Part shown: positions 2,351 to 28,177 of the stretch, one piece after another
How the letters are laid out: the number at the start of each line of letters is the position of its first letter
How positions within the stretch are numbered: position 1 is the first letter of the stretch
From: Acidobacteriota bacterium
GTDB lineage: Bacteria > Acidobacteriota > Vicinamibacteria > Fen-336
Direction: 5' to 3'
Assembly (NCBI GenBank): GCA_011526565.1
Contig: WYBL01000163.1
Span: 124,001-188,000 of the forward strand
Length of the DNA stretch: 64,000 nt
The notes under the pieces: model-generated
Database searches by the model: none
Seen by the model: the letters and a program-made list of their open reading frames with translations, nothing else
What the model was told of the DNA's origin: nothing
Program-made: the position numbers and the translations under genes

Positions 2351-2731
2351 TCAGCGGGCCAGCGCCGCGCCCACGCGCAGCGCGACGAGGCCCGCGGCCA
2401 GCGAGGCGAGCACGTTGAGCCCGGCCATGGCGTACGCGCCCTGGTCGAGCAGGCGGCTCGTTTCGTACTCGAACGTGGAGAAGGTGGTGAACGCGCCCAG
2501 CACGCCGGTGGCGAGGGCGAGCCGGGTCAGCGGGTCGAAGCCGCCGCGCTCGGCGCCGAAGGCGACGACGAAGCCGAGCGCGAACGAGCCCGCGACGTTG
2601 ACGAGGAACGTCGCCAGCGGGAACTCCCCGCTCCACGCACGGGCGACCAGCAGCGACACGGCGTAGCGCAGCACGGCGCCCAGCGCGCCTCCCGCCGCCA
2701 CCGCGAGGAACCGTGCCGCGGGTGCATCCAT
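2351..2731 (-). CDS. crcB: Fluoride channel CrcB/FluC
   Basis: This is a small membrane channel that exports fluoride as a dual-topology dimer. The 126 residues form four hydrophobic segments with the family motifs GGALGAVLRY near the N-terminus, FLVNVAGSFALG in the second helix and GVLGAFTTFSTFEYET in the third, including the Phe/Thr/Ser residues that line the pore and sodium site. The ATG at 2731 is 7 nt after a TAGACT hexamer, and that hexamer begins with the TAG stop of the upstream M48 gene. There is no room for a fluoride riboswitch (the gap is 10 nt). DUF190 follows in the same operon. Confidence 0.95.
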   Translation of the reverse strand: MDAPAARFLAVAAGGALGAVLRYAVSLLVARAWSGEFPLATFLVNVAGSFALGFVVAFGAERGGFDPLTRLALATGVLGAFTTFSTFEYETSRLLDQGAYAMAGLNVLASLAAGLVALRVGAALAR

Positions 2732-2738
2732 TGCCCCG

Positions 2739-2744
2739 AGTCTA
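2739..2744 (-). promoter_or_regulatory. TAGACT -10 box, crcB
   Basis: TAGACT ends 7 nt before the crcB ATG. Its first three bases are the stop codon of the M48 gene. No convincing -35 was found. Confidence 0.45.
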
Positions 2745-4625
2745 ACGCCGCACCACGAGTGCGCCGGCCACCCGCTTCGCCAGCTTCTTCGCCGTGCCCT
2801 GGCCCGTGCCAGCGAGCACGAACGTGCGCAGTTCGCCGGGCACCCGCAGCGGCTCGAGCGCCTGGAGCAGGGCCTCGCCGGCGCGCCGGCCAGCCGCTTC
2901 CGTCTCGAAGAGGCGGCGGCGGCGCACGACGACCAGGCACCAGCAGCGGTGCTCGGGCAGCACCTTCACGCGCCGCTCGGCGAGCACCGCGAGCGCGATG
3001 TCCGGACGCGAGCGAAGCAGGGCCTGCGCCTCCTGCTCCAGCTCCGGCGGCAGGCCGTGCGGGCCGTAGTCCGCCGGGTCTTCGGCCAGCGCCCCGCGTT
3101 CGGCCTCCGCCTGCTCCTCGAGCTCCCCGCGCTCGGCCAGCCGCCGCCGGAAGGCACGCGCCTCGTCGGGCCGGCCGTGCCGCATCAGGTACTCGAAGGC
3201 GAGGCCGCAGGCCGGCACGGTGGCGGCGGGATCGGCCTCGATGGCGCGGCGCAGCAGGTCGAGGCCGCTGTCGTCGTCGCGCTCGAGCCGCAGCTCCGCC
3301 GCGGCGAACATCGCCTCGGGGCGAGGCGACACTGCGGCCAGCAGCGGCGCCAGCGCGGACAGCGCGGCCTCCGGCCCCTCGAGCAGGCGCAGCAGCCGGG
3401 CGCGCTCCAGCGCCTCGTCGGACGTCCAGGCCCCTTCGGCGCCCTGGGTCTCGAGTTCCGCCAGCCGCTGCCGGGCCGTGCGCGCCATCGCGTGGCGCTC
3501 CGCCCAGGCCTCGCGCGCCGTCTCGCGCCAGCGCGTCTCGAGGATCCGGGTCACACGGGGCAGGGCCGCGCCCAGCAGCGCCGCGGCCCCCGGCTCGGCG
3601 ACCGGCGGCGGCAGCCGCGGGGCCTGGCGCAGCGCAGCCAGCCGCTCCCGCAGCGGCGGGTGGCTGTCGTCCACGTCGCCCGCGCGGCGCAGCGCCACTT
3701 CCAGCACCCGCTCCGCGCTGCCGGCCGCGGGCGCCTGCGCCACCTCCCGCGCCAGGCCCGCGAACACCCCTGCCGGCGGCGCCGGCGACTCGGCGACGCC
3801 GCGGAACACCCTTTCCCAGTAGGGTGAGAGCGAGGTCGCCGCCTGGACCTCCAGCCGCACCAGGGCGTCGGCCAGGGCGCGGGCACCGAAGCGCCGGGCC
3901 GCCACCCGGTCCGCCTCGTGCTCCTGGGCTCGCGCCTGGGCGAACGAGTAGGCCTGGAAGCGCGGCGCGTACCAGGCCACGAAGCGGCGGAACACCCAGG
4001 CCCCGGACACCTCGCCGCCGGCGAAGAGCTCGCCGAGCCGCGCCCAGGTCGCGCGCACGCGGTAGACCCAGGCGCCGAATCGCCCGTGGGCGCCGGCCAG
4101 GTGGCCGAACTCGTGGGCGAGCACGGCGCGCAACTCCGCGGTCGACAGCGCGTGGAGCAGCGGCAGGCCCAGGATCAGCGAGTTGCGGTGCCAGCCGAAG
4201 ACGCCGAGCCGTGGCACCTGGGTGACGGCTGCGTTCCACTCGTCGGTGAGCAGCACCTCGTCCGGCTCGCGCACACCGACGGCGGCGCCGACTTCGTCGA
4301 TCGCGGCAAACAGGGCCGGCGACTCGCCGCGGGTCAGCGCCAGGCCCTGCGGCCGCTCCAGGCGGACCCACAGCGCGCGCAGCACGGCCCAGGCGAAGAT
4401 GGCGGCGACCACCGCCAGCTTGAGCGCGGCGGCGCGGCCAGAGCGCGCGTGGAACATCGCCCAGCCCGCGACGCCGACCAGGGCCAGCGCGGCCGCGAGG
4501 GCGAACCCGACGTAGCCGAAGCCGAGCGCGGCCCAGCCAGCGAGCCGCCGACGGTAGGCGCGCGGATCTTCCCGCTGCAGCGCCTCGGCGCGCCGGACCA
4601 GGGCCTCGAACTCGTCGTGGGTCAT
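2742..4625 (-). CDS. M48-family membrane zinc metallopeptidase
   Basis: This is a 627-residue membrane-anchored Zn endopeptidase of the HtpX/Oma1/Ste24 superfamily. Two hydrophobic helices (about residues 33-60 and 70-90) precede the catalytic domain. HEFGH (around residue 168) supplies two His ligands and the general-base Glu. The third ligand is the Glu of EHEAD (around residue 238). The long C-terminal half (about 300 residues) is helical and Ala/Leu/Arg-rich with helix-turn-helix repeats like TPRs (for example EALERARLLRLLEGPEAALSAL, split here as EALERARLLRL and LEGPEAALSAL), suggesting a partner-binding arm. The ATG at 4625 has no Shine-Dalgarno site; TAGACT lies 14 nt upstream. The substrate is unknown; envelope protein quality control is typical of the family. 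Confidence 0.85.
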   Translation of the reverse strand: MTHDEFEALVRRAEALQREDPRAYRRRLAGWAALGFGYVGFALAAALALVGVAGWAMFHARSGRAAALKLAVVAAIFAWAVLRALWVRLERPQGLALTRGESPALFAAIDEVGAAVGVREPDEVLLTDEWNAAVTQVPRLGVFGWHRNSLILGLPLLHALSTAELRAVLAHEFGHLAGAHGRFGAWVYRVRATWARLGELFAGGEVSGAWVFRRFVAWYAPRFQAYSFAQARAQEHEADRVAARRFGARALADALVRLEVQAATSLSPYWERVFRGVAESPAPPAGVFAGLAREVAQAPAAGSAERVLEVALRRAGDVDDSHPPLRERLAALRQAPRLPPPVAEPGAAALLGAALPRVTRILETRWRETAREAWAERHAMARTARQRLAELETQGAEGAWTSDEALERARLLRLLEGPEAALSALAPLLAAVSPRPEAMFAAAELRLERDDDSGLDLLRRAIEADPAATVPACGLAFEYLMRHGRPDEARAFRRRLAERGELEEQAEAERGALAEDPADYGPHGLPPELEQEAQALLRSRPDIALAVLAERRVKVLPEHRCWCLVVVRRRRLFETEAAGRRAGEALLQALEPLRVPGELRTFVLAGTGQGTAKKLAKRVAGALVVRR

Positions 4626-13552: not shown

Positions 13553-15220
13553 CTAGCGGGAGACGCCGCGGCGGAGGGCCCGGCCTGGCGTCGCGCCCGT
13601 CGGCTCGCCGTCGCGCAACACTGCGACCCCGTTGACGAAAACGTCGCGCACGCCCACGGCGTACTGGTGCGGCTGCTCGAACGTGGCGCGGTCGGCGATC
13701 GTCGCCGGATCGAACACCACGAGATCGGCGAGGGCCCCCTCCCGGAGCTCCCCGCGATCGCGCAGGCCGAAGTTGCGCGCCGGGAGCCCGGTCAGGCGAC
13801 GGATCGCGTCGGCGAGCGTCAGCCGCTTCTCGTCGCGCACGTAGCGGCCGAGCAGCCGCGCGAAGTTGCCGTAGGCGCGCGGGTGCTGGCTCGACTTCAG
13901 GAACGCCCCCTCGGCCGCCATCGCCCCGGCGTCCGAGCCGAACGAGACCCACGGCAGCGCGAGCTGACGGGCGACGTTCTCTTCGCTCATCAGGAAGAAC
14001 ACCACGCCGATCCGCGAGCCGTCCTCCTTCGTCAGCGCCAGGATCGTCTCCTCCGGCGTCAGGCCGCGCTCCGCGGCGACCGCGGCCAGGGTGCGGCCGG
14101 TCAGCGGCTTCAGCGCCTCGCTGCGGAAGCCGACCAGCAGGATGCGCTCGGCGCTGCCGGCGGCCAGGCACAGGTTCTCGAAGCCGAGGCCCGGGGTGCG
14201 CATCTCGCGCAGGATGCGCTCGCGCAGCGCGGGCTCGGCCGCCCGCGCGTGGAAGCCCTCCCAGCCGCCGTCGAGCGCCCAGCGCGGCACGCAGGCGTCG
14301 AAGCCGGTGGCGCCGGCCGTGTAGTTGTACATGTTGGCGCTCACGTCCTGGCCGGCGGCGCGAGCGGCCTCGACCTTCGCGATCGCCGCCTCGAGCTTGC
14401 CCCAGTTGTCGCGCCCGGCCGCCTTCAGGTGCCAGATCTCGGCGCCGACGCCGGCCTCGCGGCCGATCCGGATCAGCTCGTCGACCGCCTCCAGGAAACG
14501 GTCGCCTTCGCTGCGCAGGTGCGAGAGGTAGCGGCCGCCGAACGGCGCCACCGCGCGGGCCAGCGCGATCAGCTCTTCCGAGGAGGCGTACGAGTCGGGC
14601 GCGTAGATCAGCGACGAGCCGATGCCGAGCGCGCCCAGCTCCATCTCGCGGCGCACCAGTTCCTGCATCCGCGCCAGCTCCTCGGGCGTGGCCGCGCGCT
14701 CGGCGAGCCCGATCACGTGCTCGCGCACGGTGCCGGCGCCGACGAACGAGGCCACGTTGACCGCGACCCCGCGACGCTCGAGGTGTTCGAGGTACTCGCG
14801 CAGCGTCGTCCACGCGACCTCGTAGCGCAGGTCGCCCTGGCCCTCGCGCATCGCGCGCTTCATCGCCTCGTTCAGCGGGCCCATCGACGAGCCTTCGCCG
14901 AAGACCTCGGTGGTCACTCCCTGCTTCACGTCCGACAGCGCGCGGCCGTCGACGAGCAGGGGCTCGGTGGCCCACGACAGCACGTTGACGAAGCCGGGCG
15001 CCACGGCCAAGCCCCGGGCGTCGACGACCAGGCGCGCGGGCGCCTCGCCCAGCTCGCCCACTGCGGCCACGCGGTCGCCGCGCAGGCCGACGTCGGCGAT
15101 GCGGCCCGGCGCGCCGCTGCCGTCGTAGACGGTGCCGCCGCGGATCACGACGTCGTACGGCGCGGCGGCAGGCGGAGCGGTGGCGAGCAGGGCGGCGACG
15201 GCGACGAGCGCGGCGGGCAT
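13553..15220 (-). CDS. Exported D-aminoacylase-like amidohydrolase
   Basis: This 555-residue amidohydrolase-superfamily protein resembles N-acyl-D-amino-acid deacylases. It has an N-terminal signal peptide (about residues 1-20, ending in APPAAA). A beta-sandwich start (VIRGGTVYDGSG) is followed by the barrel. The first metal motif, normally HxH after APGF, reads APGFVNVLSWA, and the bridging Cys region reads FGEGSSMGP. Later ligands remain: His in YLSHLRSEG, His in IWHLKAAG and Asp in FGSDAGAM. A subfamily with this loss exists, so metal content and activity may differ. The ATG at 15220 has GGGAGG 4 nt upstream. It lies 69 nt ahead of the alanine-dehydrogenase-like gene and probably begins that operon. 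Confidence 0.85.
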   Translation of the reverse strand: MPAALVAVAALLATAPPAAAPYDVVIRGGTVYDGSGAPGRIADVGLRGDRVAAVGELGEAPARLVVDARGLAVAPGFVNVLSWATEPLLVDGRALSDVKQGVTTEVFGEGSSMGPLNEAMKRAMREGQGDLRYEVAWTTLREYLEHLERRGVAVNVASFVGAGTVREHVIGLAERAATPEELARMQELVRREMELGALGIGSSLIYAPDSYASSEELIALARAVAPFGGRYLSHLRSEGDRFLEAVDELIRIGREAGVGAEIWHLKAAGRDNWGKLEAAIAKVEAARAAGQDVSANMYNYTAGATGFDACVPRWALDGGWEGFHARAAEPALRERILREMRTPGLGFENLCLAAGSAERILLVGFRSEALKPLTGRTLAAVAAERGLTPEETILALTKEDGSRIGVVFFLMSEENVARQLALPWVSFGSDAGAMAAEGAFLKSSQHPRAYGNFARLLGRYVRDEKRLTLADAIRRLTGLPARNFGLRDRGELREGALADLVVFDPATIADRATFEQPHQYAVGVRDVFVNGVAVLRDGEPTGATPGRALRRGVSR

Positions 15221-15288: not shown

Positions 15289-16005
15289 ATGCTCACGATC
15301 CGCCGCACCCTTCCGTTCGCCCTCGTCCTCGCCGTCGCGGGCTGCCAGCAGAAGCCCGCGGAGCCGGCCGCGCCGCAGCTCCAGACCGACGACCAGAAGA
15401 CGCTCTACACCGTCGGCCAGATGGTCGGCCGCAACCTCGCCCCTTTCAAGCTCACCCCCGAAGAGATGGCGATCGTCAAGGCCGGCATCGACGACGCCCT
15501 CGCCGGCAGGCCCGCCGCGGTACCGATCGAGCAGTACGGGCCGCGAATCCAGCAGTTCCTCCAGCAGCGGGCGGCGAGCGCCCAGGCCGACCCGCAGAAG
15601 CAGGCCGCGCTCGACGAGCAGAAGAAGAAGGGGGCTGCGTTCCAGCAGTCCGCTGCGGCGGAACCCGGGGCCCGGGTGTTGCCGGCCGGCACGATCATCC
15701 GCACGCTCGTCGCCGGCACCGGCGCCAAGCCCTCCGGTCCCGGCGCCACGGTGAAGGTTCACTACCGCGGAACCCTGATCGACGGCAAGGAGTTCGACTC
15801 CTCGATCGCCCGCGGCGAGCCCACCGAGTTCCGACTGGACGGGGTGATCCCGTGCTGGACGGAAGGCGTCGGCGTGATGCAGGTCGGGGAGAAGGCGCGG
15901 CTCGTGTGCCCGCCCGATCGCGCCTACGGCGAGCGCGGCGCCGGCGCCGACATCCCGCCCGGCGCCACGCTCGTCTTCGAAGTGGAGCTGCTGGGCGTCA
16001 AGTGA
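15289..16005 (+). CDS. FKBP-type peptidyl-prolyl isomerase lipoprotein (FkpA/Mip-like)
   Basis: This 238-residue periplasmic folding catalyst isomerises X-Pro bonds. The signal peptide ends in a lipobox (LAVAGC), so the protein is lipid-anchored. A helical dimerisation arm (about residues 30-120), as in FkpA and Mip, starts with YTVGQMVGRNLAPF and is rich in Gln and Ala. The C-terminal FKBP domain (about 125-238) keeps VKVHYRGTLIDGKEFDSS, the VIPCWTEGV strand and the YGERGAG loop. The ATG at 15289 is 10 nt after TATCCT. The gene is monocistronic. Confidence 0.93.
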   Translation: MLTIRRTLPFALVLAVAGCQQKPAEPAAPQLQTDDQKTLYTVGQMVGRNLAPFKLTPEEMAIVKAGIDDALAGRPAAVPIEQYGPRIQQFLQQRAASAQADPQKQAALDEQKKKGAAFQQSAAAEPGARVLPAGTIIRTLVAGTGAKPSGPGATVKVHYRGTLIDGKEFDSSIARGEPTEFRLDGVIPCWTEGVGVMQVGEKARLVCPPDRAYGERGAGADIPPGATLVFEVELLGVK

Positions 16006-16056: not shown

Positions 16057-19000
16057 TTGAACCTCGGGCAGCGGGCCGCCGCCGTCTTCGACGTCCAGCC
16101 CGGCGAGGGCCGCACGGCCTCGCTGATGCTGGCTCACGCCTTCTCGATGGGCCTGGCCACGGTCTTCTTCGAGACCGCGGCCTCCGCGCTGTTCCTCGCC
16201 CGCTACCCGTCGAGCCTGCTGCCGTGGGTCTACATCGCGGCGGCGGTGGTCAACACCGCGACGGGCCTCGCCTACACGGCGCTGCAGGCCCGGCTCGGCT
16301 TCGCGCGGCTGATGCAGGGCACGCTCGCCTTCCTGCTGGTGGCGACGCTGGTGTTCCGCGCCGGGCTCGCCTGGACGGACGGCGCCGCGCTGGTGTTCGG
16401 GCTGCTCGTCTTCTACCGCGTGGTCTCGATCCTCACCGACCTCGAGTACTGGGCGGTCGCCGCCCGCATCTACGACGTGCGGCAGGCCAAGCGGCTGTAC
16501 GGGTTCGTCGGCTCCGGCGAGGTGATCGCCCGCATCGGCGGCTCGTTCTCGGTGCCGCTGCTGGTGCCCGCCCTCGGCGTGGCCAACCTGCTGCTGCTCT
16601 CCGCGCTCGCGCTGCTCGGCTGCCTGCTGCTGGTGGCGGCCGTGCTGCGCGGCGTCGCGACCGAAGAGCCGCCCACGACCGCCACGCCGGCCTCGGCCGC
16701 CGCACAGCGGCCGGGTGCGCTGTCGCTGCTGCGGACCGTGCTGGCCGACCGCTACCTGAAGCTGCTGGTCGCGGTGGTCTTCTGCGGCGTGCTCGGCAAG
16801 TACTTCGTCGACTTCGCGTTCCTCGAGCAGATGAAGAGCCGCTACGCGGGCGCCAGCGAGCTGGCCACCTTCTTCGGCCTGTTCTCGGGCTTCACCCAGG
16901 TCGGCTCGCTGCTGGCGCGGGCCTTCCTCTCGGGCCGCGTGCTGAAGCGCTACGGCGTCTCGGTCGGACTCGTCATCATGCCGATGGCCCACGTCGCCTG
17001 CACCCTGCTGCTGGTCGGGGCCGGGCTGCTCGACCTCGGCGCCGCGGTGTTCTGGCTGGTGATCGCCAACCAGGGCGTCTACAAGGTGCTCAAGCATCCG
17101 GTCGACTCGCCGTCGATCAAGGTGCTGTACCAGCCGCTGCAGAAGTCGCAGCGGCTGGCGATGCAGGTCGCGGTCGAGACGCTGGTCACGCCGGTCACGT
17201 TCGGGCTGGCGGGCCTGGTGATGCTGCTGTTCGCGACGGTCGTGCCCTACGACCCGACGGCCTTCGCGGTGGTGCTGCTCCTCTCCTTCGCCGCCTGGGC
17301 GTGGTTCGCGCAGCAGGCCGGGCGCGAGTACGCGGGGGCGCTGGCCGCCGCGCTCAAGGGCCGGGTCGAGGACGTCGAGTTCACGTTCGAGGACGAGGCC
17401 GGCCTCAAGGCGCTGAAGGGCACCTTGTTCCAGGGCAAGCCGTCCGAGATCCTGTTCGCACTCGAGCTGCTCGAGAAGAGCCTGGGGCCGAAGCTGGCCC
17501 CGGCCCTGTCCGACCTCGCCGGGCACCCCGCCCCCGAGGTGCGGGCCGCCGTCCTCCACTACGCGGAGCGGCAGCGGCTCGAATCGCTGCGGCCGATCGT
17601 CGAGCGGGCGATCGAGCGCGACTCCGACGCGCTGGTGCGGGCCGCCGCGCTGACCGCACTGGCGGCGGTGGCAGGGACGGCGACCCAGCAGCGGATCGCG
17701 GCCTTCCTCGCCGATCCCGACCCGGCGGTCGCGCGCGCCGCGCTGATCGCCATGCTGCGTCAAGGCGCCGACTTCGCGAACCACCACCTCGCCGAGCGGG
17801 CCCGCTCGCGCCGGCCCGAGCGCCGGCTGTGGGCCGCCCGCGTGATCGCCGACGTGGGCGAGCCGCGGCGCTTCCGGGACGCGCTGGCGCGGCTGCTCGA
17901 GGACGAGTCTCCGGACGTGCGACGGGCGGCGCTGGCCGCCGCGGCCCGCGTGCGCGACCACCGCCACTGGCCGGCGGCGATCCTGGCCCTCGGCGACCGG
18001 GTGGTCGCCGGCGCCGCCGAGAACGCGCTGGTCGCGGTCGGCGACGACGTGCTGCCCGCGCTGCGCGACGCCGTGCGCGTCGAGCAGGACGCGCGGGTGG
18101 CGCGGCGGGCCGCCCGCGTCGTCGGCCGCATCCGCACGCCCGCCGCCCAGGCCCTGCTGTTCGACCTGCTGCAGAGCCCGCACGCGCTGGTCCGCGGCGA
18201 AGCGCTGGGCGCCCTCGCCCGCGCGGGCGCGACCGCGACCGGCGCCGACCGGGCCCGGGTCGAGGCGCTGCTCGAGCGCAGCCTCGAGGACGCGGCCCGC
18301 AAGCTCGCCACCCTCGACGACATCGGCGACGACGAGACCGTCGCGCTGGTCCGCCACGCGCTCGAGAGCGAGCTGCGCGCCGCGGGGGCGCGGCTGCTGC
18401 TGATGCTCGCGCTGACCCACGACCCGGTCGCCGTGCTGCGCGCCCGCGACCACCTCGGCAGCGCCGCCCGCGAGAAGCGGGCCTACGCGCTCGAGCTGCT
18501 GGAGGTGACGCTGGGGCCGGAGCTGTTCGCCCGCGTCCAGCCGCTGCTGGCCGATCCGCCCGACCCGAAGCGGGAGCTGGTGGCCCGCCACGCCCCCGCC
18601 CGCGCGACCCGCGTGGAGCGGCTGGGCGAGCTGGTCGAAGGCGACGCGCTGTGGATGGCGCCGTGGACCCGGGCCTGCGCCGCGGCGGCGGCCGTGCGGC
18701 TCGGGCTGCCCGGCATCGACGTCACGCTGAGCCGCCTGCGCGACCGGGCGCCCGACGACACCTTCGTCGGCGACTCCACGACCGTCGCGCTCAAGCGCGC
18801 CTCGGCGGCGATGCTCGACACGGTTGCGGCGGCGGCGGGCGGCGAGATCGGGAGGGGTCTGATGCTGGCCATCGAGAAGGTGATCATCCTGAAGTCCGTG
18901 AACATCTTCGGGCAGGTCTCCGAAGACGTGCTGGCGGACGTCGGCGCGCTGCTCGAGGAGGTCTCCTACGACGCCGGGCAGGTGATCTTCGAGCAGGGCG

Positions 19001-19317
19001 AGCAGGGCGACAGCATGTACGTGATCATCGACGGCCGCGTGCGCGTGTACGACGGCGAGCGCACGATCGTCGAGCTCGGCGAACGCGACATCTTCGGCGA
19101 GCTGGCCCTGCTCGACCCCGAGCCGCGCTCGGCCTCGATCGCGGCGATGGTGCCGACCCGCCTGTTCCGCCTCGACCGCGAGGCCTTCCTCGAGCTGATG
19201 GCCGGCAGCCCCGAGATCGTGCGCGGCGTGCTGCACGTGCTGTGCGAGCGGCTGCGCCAGACGGCGCGCAAGGCCGGCGGCTACCAGGACAAGCCGGCCG
19301 CTGGACAACAGGGCTGA
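16057..19317 (+). CDS. ATP/ADP-translocase-like (NTT) membrane protein fused to HEAT repeats and a cNMP-binding domain
   Basis: This is a 1086-residue three-part protein. Residues 1 to about 420 form a 12-helix transporter of the NTT/AAA nucleotide-translocase type within the MFS fold (ALFLARYPSSLLP, LYGFVGSGEV, VYKVLKHPVDSPSIKVLYQPL). Residues about 440-920 are HEAT/armadillo-type helical repeats rich in Ala, Arg and Leu (for example VRAAVLHYAERQ and VRRAALAAAARV). The last 130 residues are a CRP-type cyclic-nucleotide-binding domain with the phosphate cassette FGELALLDPEPRSASI, whose Arg normally contacts the cyclic phosphate. The likely role is nucleotide or other anion transport gated by cAMP or cGMP; NTT proteins of free-living bacteria are poorly characterised. 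The TTG start at 16057 is supported by TAGAAT 9 nt upstream. Confidence 0.85.
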   Translation: MNLGQRAAAVFDVQPGEGRTASLMLAHAFSMGLATVFFETAASALFLARYPSSLLPWVYIAAAVVNTATGLAYTALQARLGFARLMQGTLAFLLVATLVFRAGLAWTDGAALVFGLLVFYRVVSILTDLEYWAVAARIYDVRQAKRLYGFVGSGEVIARIGGSFSVPLLVPALGVANLLLLSALALLGCLLLVAAVLRGVATEEPPTTATPASAAAQRPGALSLLRTVLADRYLKLLVAVVFCGVLGKYFVDFAFLEQMKSRYAGASELATFFGLFSGFTQVGSLLARAFLSGRVLKRYGVSVGLVIMPMAHVACTLLLVGAGLLDLGAAVFWLVIANQGVYKVLKHPVDSPSIKVLYQPLQKSQRLAMQVAVETLVTPVTFGLAGLVMLLFATVVPYDPTAFAVVLLLSFAAWAWFAQQAGREYAGALAAALKGRVEDVEFTFEDEAGLKALKGTLFQGKPSEILFALELLEKSLGPKLAPALSDLAGHPAPEVRAAVLHYAERQRLESLRPIVERAIERDSDALVRAAALTALAAVAGTATQQRIAAFLADPDPAVARAALIAMLRQGADFANHHLAERARSRRPERRLWAARVIADVGEPRRFRDALARLLEDESPDVRRAALAAAARVRDHRHWPAAILALGDRVVAGAAENALVAVGDDVLPALRDAVRVEQDARVARRAARVVGRIRTPAAQALLFDLLQSPHALVRGEALGALARAGATATGADRARVEALLERSLEDAARKLATLDDIGDDETVALVRHALESELRAAGARLLLMLALTHDPVAVLRARDHLGSAAREKRAYALELLEVTLGPELFARVQPLLADPPDPKRELVARHAPARATRVERLGELVEGDALWMAPWTRACAAAAAVRLGLPGIDVTLSRLRDRAPDDTFVGDSTTVALKRASAAMLDTVAAAAGGEIGRGLMLAIEKVIILKSVNIFGQVSEDVLADVGALLEEVSYDAGQVIFEQGEQGDSMYVIIDGRVRVYDGERTIVELGERDIFGELALLDPEPRSASIAAMVPTRLFRLDREAFLELMAGSPEIVRGVLHVLCERLRQTARKAGGYQDKPAAGQQG

Positions 19318-21970: not shown

Positions 21971-22657
21971 TCAGTCGGCCAGCTTGTAGCCGAGGCCGTG
22001 CAGGGTGACGATCAGCCGCGGCTGCTTCGGATCCTGCTCCAGCTTGCGGCGCAGCCAGGCCACGTGCACGTCGACGGTGCGGGTCGACACCAGCGCGTCG
22101 TAGCCCCACACCTCGCGCAGCAGCTCCTCGCGCGACAGCGTCGCGCCCGGGTGGCGCAGGAAGTACTCGAGCAGCGAGAGCTCGCGGGCCGAGAGATCGA
22201 CGAGCTGGCCGCGGCAGCGCACCTCGGCGCGGCGGGGATCGAGTTCCAGCTCGCCGTGGCGCAGCGGACCGGTTGCTGCCGGGGGCGCCGTGCCGCGACG
22301 GCGCAGGCGGGCCTCGATGCGGGCCAGCAGCTCGGCCATCTCGAACGGCTTGGCCAGGTAGTCGTCGGCGCCGAGCTTGAGCCCGACCACGCGATCGGCG
22401 ACCTGGCCGCGCGCCGTCAGCATCAGCACCGGGGTCTCGTCGCCCCGGGCCCGCAGCTCGCGGCAGACGTCGAAGCCGCTGCGGCGCGGCAGCATCACGT
22501 CGAGGACCAGCAGGTCCCAGCTCCCGGCCCGGGCGCGGGCCAGGCCGGTCTCGCCGTCGCGCGCCACCTCGACGGCGTAGCCCTCGGCCGCGAGCCGGTC
22601 GCTCAGGGTGAGCACGAGGCCGGGCTCGTCTTCGACCAGCAGCAGCCGCGGCTTCAG
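21971..22657 (-). CDS. OmpR/PhoB-family response regulator (CTG start)
   Basis: This is a 228-residue DNA-binding response regulator. The receiver domain has acidic residues ED (about 9-11), phospho-acceptor Asp53 in VLDVMLP, Thr81 in MLTAR and Lys103 in LAKPF. The C-terminal winged helix (about 130-228) keeps LSARELSLLEYFLRHPG, REELLREVWG, TRTVDVHVAWLRRKLE and LHGLGYKL. No ATG, GTG or TTG stands near the start of the conserved region. A CTG at 22657 overlaps the kinase stop (CTGA) and has GGAG 6 nt upstream, so I take CTG as the start. Its likely targets are the phased repeats at 24559-24585. Confidence 0.92.
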   Translation of the reverse strand: MKPRLLLVEDEPGLVLTLSDRLAAEGYAVEVARDGETGLARARAGSWDLLVLDVMLPRRSGFDVCRELRARGDETPVLMLTARGQVADRVVGLKLGADDYLAKPFEMAELLARIEARLRRRGTAPPAATGPLRHGELELDPRRAEVRCRGQLVDLSARELSLLEYFLRHPGATLSREELLREVWGYDALVSTRTVDVHVAWLRRKLEQDPKQPRLIVTLHGLGYKLAD

Positions 22658-24492
22658 GTGCGGCTCCGCACGGGCTCGGCGGCACCCCCGGTCACCGCCT
22701 CGGCCGGCGCCGCGGGCAGCTCGACGACGAAGGCGGCACCGCCGCCGGGGCCGTCCTCGGCGCGGATGCGACCGCCGTGCGCCTGGACGCTGCGCCGCAC
22801 GACCGACAGGCCGAGGCCGCTGCCGGCCAACTGCCCGTCGACGGCCCGGCGACCGCGATAGAAGGGCTCGAAGAGCCGCCCCCGGTCCGCGTCGCCGAGC
22901 CCGGGGCCGCGATCGCTGACGGTGATCACGACGCGCCGGCCCTCGGCGCGGGCCGCCACGGCGACACCGCGGCCTTCGCCGTGGCGGCGGGCGTTGGCGA
23001 GCAGGTTGGCGAACACGCGCTGCAGCGCGCCGGGCTCGCCCCACAGCGCGGGCAGTTCCGCGGCCAGCGACCACTCGACCGCGATCCCCTCGTCGGCGAA
23101 CCCCGCCTGGCGCGCCGCCCGCTCGAGCAGCGCGGGGACCGGCACGGGCCCGCGGCGGCGCGCCCGCTCCGGCGCGTCGGCGCCGGCGAACTCGAGGAGC
23201 TGCTCGACCATCTCCGAGAGCCGCTGCCCCTCTTCCACGAGCGTCGCGCCGTAGCGCTGCGCCTGCTCCGGCGTGGCCACCACGCCGTCGCGCAGGTTTT
23301 CGGCGGCGGAGCGGATCACGGAGAGCGGCGTGCGCAGCTCGTGGGAGACCCCGGCGACGAACTCGCCCTGGGCCTGCAGCAGGGTTCGGGCGCGCACCTG
23401 CGAGAGGGCGAGCAGCGCGACGCTCCCCGCGAGCACGACGAGGATGCCCGCGGCGACCAGCGCCTGCCGGCGCTGGGTGGCCGCGACCGCCGCCTCCAGC
23501 GAGCCTTCGCGATGGGCGACCCGCAGCCGCCAGGCCCCTCCGCCCGACGTGCCCATGCGCAGCACGAGCATGTTGCGGGCCGTCGGCGCCAGGGCGGGGG
23601 CTTCGCCCGTTTCGCGCCGCTCGGCCGTCAGCTCGATCCGGGTCACGGCTCGCCGCGCCGCGAGGTGCGCGAGCACCGCGCCGTCGACGTCGTCGAGCCG
23701 GGGGGAGAACAGCGCAGCCTCGACGTCGGCGCCCGCCGCCGCAGGCGCACCGGGGCTCGCGTAGACGGGGGCGCCGTCGCGGTCCGTGTCGCGCACCACG
23801 CGCAGGTGGTACTCGCCGTCCGCCCCGAAGTGGACGCGCTCCAGCTCCGGCAGCACGCGGGTGCGGAGCGCGTCGAGATCGAACCGCATCAGCAGCCACT
23901 CGCGCGGCCCGGTCGTGGCGAAGTGGAAGGCGACGGCACCACCGGCCGCCGTCTCGCGGCCGGCGCTCAGGGGCAGCGCGACCGGCAGCACGGGCACCAG
24001 CAGCGCCGCGGCGTCAGGCTGCACGCCGGGCGTGGCCTTGCGCGCGATCCGGTCACGCACGGCGAAGAGGTCGGCGGGCCAGCTTGCCTCGTCGAAGCGG
24101 TCGCCCGGCTCGTCGAAGCGGGCGATCCGCGGCGGCGCCTCCGGCTCCCCGGCGCGCACGAGCCACAGGTCCTTCAGCATCGCCGCCCGCGGCGACTCGG
24201 CCCGCCACGCGCGCAGCCGCTCGCCGAGCTCGGGCAGGCGCGCTTGCTGCAACGCCGCCGCGTCCACGTGGAGCAGCACCGTCAGCCGGCCCAGCTCGCG
24301 GTCGAGGTCGCGGGCGAAGGCGTCGGCGCGCGCCTGCGCGCCCGCGCGGCGGCGCTGCAGCTCGGCCTGCTTGACCTCGTCGAGCCAGCGGTGCTGCATG
24401 GCGCCGAGCCCCGCGAGCAGCGCGATCAAGGCGACCGCGGCCGCGGGCAGGACGGCGGCCGAGAGGCGCTCGCGGATGGGGCGGGGACTCAA
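22654..24492 (-). CDS. Membrane sensor histidine kinase
   Basis: This 612-residue HisKA/HATPase kinase is the partner of the overlapping response regulator. TM1 (about 13-32) and TM2 (about 338-360) flank a large periplasmic sensor of about 300 residues. Kinase motifs are the H box FVAGVSHELRTPLS (His near 383), N box NLLANARRHGEG, DRGPGLG, FEPFYRG and GSGLGLSVV. The start is TTG at 24492, with GAGGA 8 nt upstream and a TAGACT -10 further up. The sensor ligand is unknown. The genes divergent from it encode a periplasmic protein and a TonB receptor, suggesting it senses an outer-membrane or nutrient cue. Confidence 0.92.
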   Translation of the reverse strand: MSPRPIRERLSAAVLPAAAVALIALLAGLGAMQHRWLDEVKQAELQRRRAGAQARADAFARDLDRELGRLTVLLHVDAAALQQARLPELGERLRAWRAESPRAAMLKDLWLVRAGEPEAPPRIARFDEPGDRFDEASWPADLFAVRDRIARKATPGVQPDAAALLVPVLPVALPLSAGRETAAGGAVAFHFATTGPREWLLMRFDLDALRTRVLPELERVHFGADGEYHLRVVRDTDRDGAPVYASPGAPAAAGADVEAALFSPRLDDVDGAVLAHLAARRAVTRIELTAERRETGEAPALAPTARNMLVLRMGTSGGGAWRLRVAHREGSLEAAVAATQRRQALVAAGILVVLAGSVALLALSQVRARTLLQAQGEFVAGVSHELRTPLSVIRSAAENLRDGVVATPEQAQRYGATLVEEGQRLSEMVEQLLEFAGADAPERARRRGPVPVPALLERAARQAGFADEGIAVEWSLAAELPALWGEPGALQRVFANLLANARRHGEGRGVAVAARAEGRRVVITVSDRGPGLGDADRGRLFEPFYRGRRAVDGQLAGSGLGLSVVRRSVQAHGGRIRAEDGPGGGAAFVVELPAAPAEAVTGGAAEPVRSRT

Positions 24493-24512: not shown

Positions 24513-24518
24513 AGTCTA
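24513..24518 (-). promoter_or_regulatory. TAGACT -10 box, two-component system
   Basis: TAGACT on the minus strand lies 20 nt before the kinase TTG start. The leader carries a GAGGA ribosome site. Confidence 0.45.
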
Positions 24519-24558
24519 GGCCGCGCCCCGAGCCCGTGGTAGGCGCGATCCGCAGACT

Positions 24559-24597
24559 TTTACGAGCCCTTTACAACCTCTTTGCCGGCGCTTGACA
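24559..24597 (+). promoter_or_regulatory. Three 11-bp-phased direct repeats ending in a TTGACA -35 box
   Basis: TTTAC at 24559, TTTAC at 24570 and TTTGC at 24581 are exactly 11 bp apart. A perfect -35 TTGACA starts 11 bp later at 24592. No good -10 follows (GCCCAT at 17-bp spacing), as expected of an activator-dependent promoter. Head-to-tail repeats at one helical turn are the known binding mode of OmpR-family regulators, and one is encoded next door. Confidence 0.6.
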
Positions 24598-24666
24598 CAC
24601 GCCGGAGCGGCGCGGCCCATCTTGGGTCGCATCAGGGGCGCGAGACGCCTCGGGGAGTCGAACGAG

Positions 24667-25573: not shown

Positions 25574-28177
25574 ATGTCCCGCCTGCTGCGCGCGGCGCTC
25601 TTCGCCGCCCTGGGCGCGGCCCTGCCCGGCCACGCCGACCCGGCCCCCGCGGCCCCGCCCGTCGACCTCGCCGTGCGCGTCTTGGACCCGTCGGGCGCCG
25701 CGGTGCCGAAGGCCGTCGTGTCGCTGGTTTCGGAGGCCCGCACGCAGCAGGCGAAGGCCGACGGGCGGGGTGTCGCGCGTTTCGCGCGCCTCGCCCCCGG
25801 TCTCTACACCGTGATCGCCGAGGCGAAGGGCTTCGCCGCTCGTGCGTTGCCCGACGTGCGGCTCGCGGGACGCAGCCAGGAGCTGGAGCTGGCGCTCGAC
25901 CTGGCCGCGGTCGAAGAAGCCGTGGTGGTCTCCGGCGACGTCGCGCCGGGCCGCGAGCGCGACTTCACGCGGGTGCTGACGGCGGAAGACCTCGCCGACC
26001 TGCCCGACGACCCCGACGAACTGCAGGAGGCGCTCTTGGCGATGGCGGGCCCCGACGCGATGATGCGCGTCAACGGCTTCGCGGGCGGCCGCATGCCGGC
26101 CAAGGCCCAGATCCGCCAGGTCCGCTTCCAGACCAACGCGTACGCGGCCGAAAACCACGAGATGGCCCACACGTTCGTGGACGTGATCACGAAGCCCGGC
26201 CTCGGGTCGTGGCAGACGTCGGCGTCGCTGGGCCTGCGCGACGGCTCGTGGGCGGCACGTCCGCCGCTCAGCGACGACCGGGCCGACGCCGACTTCTACG
26301 GCCGCGGCACGCTGTCCTTCGACGGCCCGCTGGTGAAGGACCGGACGTCGCTGGCGCTGTCGCTGACGGCGCGTGACACCGCCGAGTCGCGCGCCGTGCG
26401 CGCGCTGACTCCAGCGGGCGCGACCTCCGCCCCCTTCCGGCCGGAGACGAAGCGCCTCGACGTGCAGGCCCGCGTCGAGCACGCGCTCGGCAAGACCCAC
26501 ACCCTGCGCGCGGAGCTGACCTCCTACGGCCAGCGGCAGGAGGGCCTGGGCGTCGGCGGCCTGGTGCTGCCCGAGCGCAGCTACGCCCAGGACCTCGACG
26601 AGACTCGGCTGCGCGTGTCCGACGTCGGTCTCGCGTGGGGCAAGGTGGCAACCGAGACACGGCTCGAGCTGGCACGCACGACCACGCTCTTCGAGCCTGC
26701 GACGCTGGCGCCGGCGGTCGACGTGGCCGGCGCGTTCTCGGCCGGCGGCGCGACCGTGGAGGGCCGCGAGCGCGCGCTCGGCCTCGACCTGTTCCAGGCC
26801 TTCGACGTCTCCCGCGGCAAACACGCGCTGCGCTTCGGCGGCCAGCTCCAGTCGCGGTGGATCGACTCGACCGTCGTGCGCGACGCGCGCGGCACCTTCG
26901 GCTTCGACGACCTCGAGGCCTGGCGGGCGGGCCGGCCTTCGACGTGGAGCCGGCGCACGGCGGGCGAGCCGGTCGCATACGCCCACCACCAGGCGGCGCT
27001 GTTCGTGCAGGACGACTGGAAGCTCTCGCGCCAGGTGCTGCTCGGGCTCGGCCTGCGCTACGAGGCGCAGAGCCGCGTGTCCGACGCGCTGTCGCTGGCG
27101 CCGCGGGCGTCGCTGACCTGGGCGCCGAACGACCGCACGTCGCTGCGGGCGGGCGCCGGCGTGTTCCACGCGTGGCTGGGCGCGGAGACGTACGAGGAGG
27201 CGCTGCGCAGCTCCAGCGCCGGCCGCGAGGAGTTCGTGACCGACCCTGGCTGGCCGGATCCTCTCGCCGGCGGCGCCGCGACCGGCGCGGCGCTTCCCAC
27301 GCGACGCCAGCTCGGCGCTCTCTCCCTCGCGCGGGTCACCCGGTTCTCGCTCGGCGTCGAGCGCCAGCTCGGCGCCCAGGTGCGTCTCAACGCGTCGTAC
27401 GTCCACGAGCGCGGCGAAGATCTCTACCGCGGCCGCAACCTCAACCCGGTCGCGGCCTCCGGCGAACGGCCGCTCGCGGAGTTCGGCAACCTGCTCTCGG
27501 TCGAGAGCGAGGGGCGCTCGCGCGAGCACACGCTGCGCGCCGACGCCCGCCTCGGCGGTCCGATGGGCCGGCTGTCCGGCATCGTCGGCTACGCGCTGAC
27601 GTTCTCGCGCGACGACGCCGACGGCCCCTTCGCGCTGCCGGCCGACGAGGCCGATCCCGGCGCCGAGTGGGGCCCGGCCCGCGACGACGTCCGCCACCGC
27701 CTGTTCGGCTTCGTGACCTGGCGCCTGCGCCCCGACCTGCGCCTCGCGACCAGCTTCCGCGCGCAGAGCGGCTCGCCCTATCCCGTCACGCTGGGCCGCG
27801 ACCTCGACGGCGACGGCCTGCGCCTGGAGCGCCCCGACGGCTTCGGCCGCAACGCGGGCCGAGGTACCGCCACGCTCGACGCCAGCGTGCGCCTGTCGTG
27901 GAGCTTCGGCCTCGGCACGCGGACGACGCCGGCCGGACCCGGCACGCCGCGCGTCATCACGGTGCGCGCGGGCGACGAAGGCGGCCCGCCGGACATCGGC
28001 GGGCCCGGCCGCAGCGACGCCCGCGTGCAGGTCACGCTGCACGCGCAGGCTCTCAACGCCTTCAACCGCACCAACGCGGTCGCGTGGTCCGGGGTGTGGG
28101 GCTCGGCGAGCTTCGGCTCGCCGCTGGCGGCGATGCCGGGCCGGCGCCTCGAACTGGGGGCCTCGGTGCGGTTCTGA
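25574..28177 (+). CDS. TonB-dependent receptor-like protein with carboxypeptidase-regulatory domain
   Basis: This 867-residue outer-membrane protein has a signal peptide (about 1-22). A carboxypeptidase-regulatory-like beta-sandwich follows (about 28-115; VRVLDPSGAAVPKAVVSLV, LAPGLYTVIAEAKGF). A plug-like segment comes next (about 130-215), and then a long beta-barrel with aromatic strands ending in the terminal Phe (GASVRF). This architecture is typical of Oar-like receptors of Acidobacteriota and Myxococcota. A TonB box is not obvious. The ligand is unknown. It is translated 4 nt after the upstream exported protein, which may be its periplasmic partner. Confidence 0.85.
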   Translation: MSRLLRAALFAALGAALPGHADPAPAAPPVDLAVRVLDPSGAAVPKAVVSLVSEARTQQAKADGRGVARFARLAPGLYTVIAEAKGFAARALPDVRLAGRSQELELALDLAAVEEAVVVSGDVAPGRERDFTRVLTAEDLADLPDDPDELQEALLAMAGPDAMMRVNGFAGGRMPAKAQIRQVRFQTNAYAAENHEMAHTFVDVITKPGLGSWQTSASLGLRDGSWAARPPLSDDRADADFYGRGTLSFDGPLVKDRTSLALSLTARDTAESRAVRALTPAGATSAPFRPETKRLDVQARVEHALGKTHTLRAELTSYGQRQEGLGVGGLVLPERSYAQDLDETRLRVSDVGLAWGKVATETRLELARTTTLFEPATLAPAVDVAGAFSAGGATVEGRERALGLDLFQAFDVSRGKHALRFGGQLQSRWIDSTVVRDARGTFGFDDLEAWRAGRPSTWSRRTAGEPVAYAHHQAALFVQDDWKLSRQVLLGLGLRYEAQSRVSDALSLAPRASLTWAPNDRTSLRAGAGVFHAWLGAETYEEALRSSSAGREEFVTDPGWPDPLAGGAATGAALPTRRQLGALSLARVTRFSLGVERQLGAQVRLNASYVHERGEDLYRGRNLNPVAASGERPLAEFGNLLSVESEGRSREHTLRADARLGGPMGRLSGIVGYALTFSRDDADGPFALPADEADPGAEWGPARDDVRHRLFGFVTWRLRPDLRLATSFRAQSGSPYPVTLGRDLDGDGLRLERPDGFGRNAGRGTATLDASVRLSWSFGLGTRTTPAGPGTPRVITVRAGDEGGPPDIGGPGRSDARVQVTLHAQALNAFNRTNAVAWSGVWGSASFGSPLAAMPGRRLELGASVRF

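Follow-up and report, generated by a model that had tools for sequence, protein, structure and literature searches.

The gap between a two-component system and a divergently oriented pair of genes for an exported protein and a TonB-dependent receptor (the exported-tonB pair) carries four head-to-tail repeats in this Acidobacteriota genome. With a probability of roughly 84%, judged from sequence comparison, we read this block as the operator of the adjacent two-component system, at which the phosphorylated regulator would activate both the exported-tonB pair and its own promoter. The type of mechanism is an ordinary one and is well supported by comparison between genomes. The block is very probably an OmpR/PhoB-type operator and the site through which the neighbouring regulator switches genes. 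Coordinates refer to the window, the whole 64,000-nucleotide stretch that was analysed.

Four direct repeats between divergent genes

The initial annotation had noted TTTAC, TTTAC, TTTGC and TTGACA at exact 11-bp steps, and the four units do begin at 24559, 24570, 24581 and 24592 (Table 1). Chance does not account for them, as 100 dinucleotide shuffles contained no match to the repeat pattern. The four-repeat pattern, allowed up to three mismatches, matches once in the 64 kb, and the three-repeat pattern finds this site only. A weight matrix built without the window's genus gives the site 25.3 bits, as compared to 7.2 for the next-best position in the 64 kb. When up to two mismatches are allowed, the core pattern falls in a single place of the 5.79-Mb genome, in two overlapping registers, so that a search for a wider regulon found no second operator at this threshold; a reversed control pattern had no match in the same genome.

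Table 1. Positions of the candidate operator, promoter elements and flanking genes in the window
Feature	Coordinates	Strand	Sequence or description	Basis or remark
Repeat 1	24559..24563	+	TTTAC (TTTTAC from 24558)	Sequence, comparison of genera
Repeat 2	24569..24574	+	CTTTAC (TTTAC 24570-24574)	Sequence, alignment; CTTAAC in most relatives
Repeat 3	24580..24585	+	CTTTGC (TTTGC 24581-24585)	Sequence, alignment; CTTTGC/CTTAGC in relatives
Repeat 4	24591..24597	+	CTTGACA (TTGACA 24592-24597)	Sequence, alignment; CTTAACC/CTTAACG in most relatives
Whole operator	24557..24601	+	Predicted OmpR/PhoB-type regulator site, two head-to-tail dimers	Conservation; binding predicted
-10-like element, exported-tonB promoter	24618..24623	+	CATCTT	Spacing comparison; weak
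-10-like element, kinase-regulator promoter	24513..24518	-	TAGACT	Spacing comparison
Exported protein, 300 aa	24667..25569	+	LolA/LolB/RseB-superfamily fold by prediction	No Pfam family
TonB-dependent receptor	25574..28177	+	CarboxypepD_reg domain	Behind exported gene in relatives too
Sensor histidine kinase	22654..24492	-	HisKA, HATPase_c; no Pfam match in the N-terminal sensor region	Divergent from exported gene
OmpR/PhoB-family response regulator	21971..22657	-		Likely start CTG at 22657

The regulator had been placed in the OmpR family, and it has both the receiver domain (PF00072, 97.8 bits) and the winged-helix Trans_reg_C domain (PF00486, 98.4 bits) above their cut-offs. Its reading frame has no ATG, GTG or TTG near the conserved start; a CTG on the reverse strand (22655-22657), overlapping the kinase stop codon as CTGA, is the likely start. 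A fold search with the whole kinase returned matches to kinase cores only and none to a sensor domain.

The exported protein had no match in Pfam, NCBIfam or PDB sequence searches, nor in a plasmid collection, and a fold search alone placed it. Its AlphaFold model, of good confidence (pLDDT 84), had 3buu as the best Foldseek match (E 5.5e-9), followed by LolA, RseB, LprG and LolB at modest TM-scores (0.2-0.6), and the protein is thus predicted to belong to the LolA/LolB/RseB superfamily, with a half-open beta-barrel lipid-carrier fold. For LolA proper, the lipoprotein carrier, no sequence-family match was obtained in Pfam or NCBIfam. Elsewhere in the window, a plus-strand gene (16057-19317) encodes an ATP/ADP-translocase-like membrane protein with HEAT repeats and a C-terminal cyclic-nucleotide-binding domain.

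The candidate operator is conserved within and beyond the class

Homologues of the exported gene were found in 58 of the 119 relatives searched, and the divergent order of regulator-kinase and exported-tonB genes is kept in many families. Outside the genus, the exported proteins are mostly 30-45% identical and the regulators 56-73%. The 30-bp core together with the upstream TTTTAC precedes exported-gene homologues in about 35 genomes from 19 genera. The periodic repeats that the initial annotation sought in relatives with the same gene order do occur, across the class and beyond. When each of the 19 genera is represented by one sequence, the information content is 1.20 bits per column in the block, as compared to 0.16 upstream and 0.13 downstream; different families share 69% identity in the core and 27% in its flanks.

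A scan of the phylum with the exact pattern matched 37 of 396 genomes, whereas the control matched none. Both the kinase and the exported homologue, one on either side, accompany the site at 12 of the 21 out-of-class loci examined; another has exported and tonB genes with no kinase within the fetched flank, at four the kinase stands alone, and the remaining four lack all of these genes. Sites beside unrelated genes occur at L272, L273, L287 and L288. One out-of-class example of the operator lies in a Pyrinomonadaceae MAG (JAJTWY010000002.1; Acidobacteriota, Blastocatellia), and this locus came from a regulator-alignment scan of named genomes, which mostly returned other OmpR regulators. Searches of the accessible literature yielded no description of this operator or module, which is apparently undescribed and phylum-wide.

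Upstream of exported-gene homologues the consensus block reads TTTTACnTn-CTTAACAAnCT-CTTTGCnnnnn-CTTAACCA. The last three units (CTTAACAAnCT, CTTTGCnnnnn and CTTAACCA) keep a strict 11-bp register in nearly all genera, whereas the upstream TTTTAC lies 9 bp before the second unit in other genera and 11 bp before it in the window's genus. The even ladder seen by the earlier reader is a consequence of this genus-specific first step: the 11-bp register of three units holds across genera, but the 11-bp step from repeat 1 to repeat 2 does not. As expected of a tandem operator, with at least two direct repeats about one turn apart upstream of a promoter, the block has, in nearly all compared genomes, three 11-bp units in register and one more at 9 or 11 bp.

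The block faces two predicted promoters

TTGACA had been taken as a -35 element. The sequence is present and overlaps the -35 position, but no -10 was found 16-18 nt downstream of it, and the -10-like CATCTT begins 20 nt past it. Counted from the operator core, this -10-like element lies at +49 to +51 in most of the sites compared by far, distant ones included, and relatives carry TTAACC or TTAACG in place of TTGACA. From this spacing and these replacements it follows that TTGACA is rather the fourth unit, which resembles a -35 here by chance; its assignment as a plain sigma-70 -35 was rejected for the 20-nt spacing and the lack of a promoter match. A weak -10 without a normal -35 at the exported-tonB promoter fits activation.

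On the other side, loci with a divergent kinase have a TAGACT/TACACT box at about 26, 36, 47 or 58 from the core, positions roughly one helical turn apart. The four spacing classes give a vector length of 0.98 at 10.5 bp, as compared to 0.30-0.38 at 8, 9 and 13 bp, a phasing drawn from few independent spacing classes. No such conserved box was seen at loci whose kinase lies elsewhere in the genome. In the window's genus an extra 2 bp separates the box from the core, equal to the displacement of repeat 1. Because repeat 1 thus keeps a constant distance to the kinase promoter and repeats 2-4 keep theirs to the other promoter, the operator very probably serves the kinase-regulator promoter as well. 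A same-family genome has two operator-like sites in outward-facing orientation, separated by about 5 bp (L105 4883-4944, G011:C351).

The candidate operator occurs with one group of regulators

With a site defined by at most one mismatch and an orthologue by at least 270 bits against the window's regulator, 35 genomes had both, three the site only, nine the regulator only and 72 neither. Of the 38 genomes with a site, 35 thus have the orthologue (Fisher p 2.6e-18, in a test that ignores shared descent). In two of the three site-only genomes the contig breaks at the kinase. The nine genomes with a regulator orthologue and no good site match comprise three with diverged versions, two with two-mismatch sites and four in which no operator match was found. 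In G103 (L071/L172, about 2650-3071) the regulator is apparently split by a frameshift or sequence error, and the operator is diverged. The site remains with the exported-tonB genes in six genomes that carry the two-component genes elsewhere, and exported-tonB paralogues in five genomes that lack a regulator orthologue have no site. The initial proposal that this kinase and regulator control the exported-tonB pair is supported by the co-occurrence and by the site staying with these genes.

Alternative explanations

These data also bear on whether the operator, though real, serves another of the genome's OmpR-family regulators. The genome encodes many such proteins and half-site types are common to family members; the reading is nonetheless highly improbable, given that the site co-occurs with this orthologue group in particular, even when the two are unlinked. 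Almost no credence attaches to chance repeats beside an ordinary -35: the promoter gap does have a higher AT content than the DNA around it, but the shuffles produced no match and the block is deeply conserved, including between families. More room must be left for the sign of control. A regulator that represses the exported-tonB pair, or has opposite effects on the two sides, could exploit an operator that overlaps the -35 position, where it might block polymerase, and that sits between two promoters. This is unlikely, since an unassisted promoter would have no normally spaced -35, the layout resembles that of PhoB-type activation, and loci without the kinase gene retain the -10 spacing.

A Pho box of the phosphate-starvation regulon (PhoB/SphR type), with the neighbouring system as PhoR-PhoB, would account for the half-site CTTAACCA, which with its 11-bp step comes very near the cyanobacterial SphR box CTTAACCT, in which 8-bp repeats are joined by 3-bp linkers (PMC1906773). 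The kinase core also scores best, weakly, against PhoR. The PhoB and PhoR model cut-offs were nonetheless missed (197.5 bits for the regulator against the PhoB model TIGR02154, cut-off 296.2), and the genome's own pst locus has a separate regulator, 39% identical. When the reading was tested at the pst loci of six genomes, the operator was absent, with a best matrix score of 1.3 or below as compared to 33.8 at the window's site, and pst-linked repeats in a sister genome are GTTAACAC-like and in another register. The Pho-regulon reading was therefore rejected and is improbable. At L268 of the sister genome (G001:C8:73000-90000), Pho-box-like 11-bp repeats (GTTAACAC, ATTAACAC and others) lie on the minus strand at about 14460-14495 and 15970-16005, upstream of pst-neighbourhood genes. 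The window's genus probably has two related operator codes, with a similar half-site in different registers.

Comparison with known systems

Like the Pho boxes of E. coli PhoB, cyanobacterial SphR and Streptomyces PhoP, the block consists of tandem head-to-tail 11-nt units upstream of a -10 and belongs with a PhoB/OmpR-family regulator (PMC1906773; PMC4415409). Unlike them, it has one target in the genome and no pst link, its first step is 9 bp in most genera, its third unit is consistently CTTTGC or CTTAGC, and its targets are a LolA-like protein and a TonB receptor.

The CpxR box is GTAAA-N5-GTAAA (PMC2912261), and the window's repeats likewise read GTAAA on the kinase-side strand, but with a step of 11 bp rather than 10 and four units. 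Further likeness to CpxAR and BaeSR comes from other families, where the operator of the orthologous system precedes genes for CpxP/Spy-like (LTXXQ) proteins or RND/HlyD efflux adaptors. LTXXQ genes stand behind the operator in G030 and G034, which represent one other family and in which the operator adjoins the orthologous regulator; in a family outside the class it precedes an HlyD-type adaptor gene. At L163 and L113 (G034 and G030, respectively) the LTXXQ gene is the divergent target of the orthologous two-component system, and at L162 (G034:C205) an operator copy lies before an RND efflux operon, directly downstream of an orthologous regulator gene. In contrast to CpxAR and BaeSR, regulator and kinase fall below the CpxR, CpxA, BaeR and BaeS model cut-offs (CpxR 161.6, cut-off 341; CpxA 106, cut-off 486), and no CpxP gene is the target in the window's clade, nor is a CpxP-like target present at the window's locus.

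Among regulators with solved structures, RegX3 and PhoP of M. tuberculosis rank close to the window's. PhoP/RegX3-type operators consist of 7-bp motifs with a 4-bp spacer and are bound by a cooperative dimer (PMC4832192). They share the direct-repeat layout of the present block and differ from it in half-site and regulon.

Proposed mechanism and possible envelope function

PhoB-type operators are built of 11-nt units bound head-to-tail, with the box just upstream of the -10 (PMC4415409; PMC1906773), and by this analogy activation by the phosphorylated regulator is the most likely action here. The kinase would sense an extracytoplasmic signal and phosphorylate the regulator, whose dimers would occupy, head-to-tail, four half-sites that lie on the same face of the DNA at intervals of one turn, at the place of a -35. 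The bound regulator would then recruit RNA polymerase to a promoter whose weak -10 is its only recognisable element, and so induce the genes for the LolA-like protein and the receptor. The other side of the same operator would act in helical phase on the kinase-regulator promoter, as autoregulation. In this scheme we infer direct binding, phosphorylation dependence, activation and an envelope-type signal.

The CpxP/Spy-like or efflux-adaptor targets elsewhere and the LolA-like fold point to envelope upkeep rather than phosphate. They suggest a role in cell-envelope homeostasis, the least secure part of our account. A larger and doubtful extension is that the system is an old, phylum-wide envelope-surveillance module of Acidobacteriota with a single operator. 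Production of the LolA-like protein would be confined to times of kinase activity; the protein would carry lipid or lipoprotein destined for the outer membrane and might signal its state to the kinase, much as CpxP or RseB does in proteobacteria, with the TonB receptor as its outer-membrane partner.

For most of the large TonB-receptor families of soil Acidobacteriota, regulators or substrates are not known. The operator described here links a sensor kinase to a single receptor and a single carrier-like protein, and the kinase offers a handle for finding the inducer of the exported-tonB pair. Because the operator is conserved between families and classes, what is learned from a single cultured species would be informative for the phylum as a whole. 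With targets that vary from carrier and receptor to a CpxP-like protein or an efflux adaptor behind one operator, these loci lend themselves, as a natural series, to the study of target changes in a two-component system that keeps its site.
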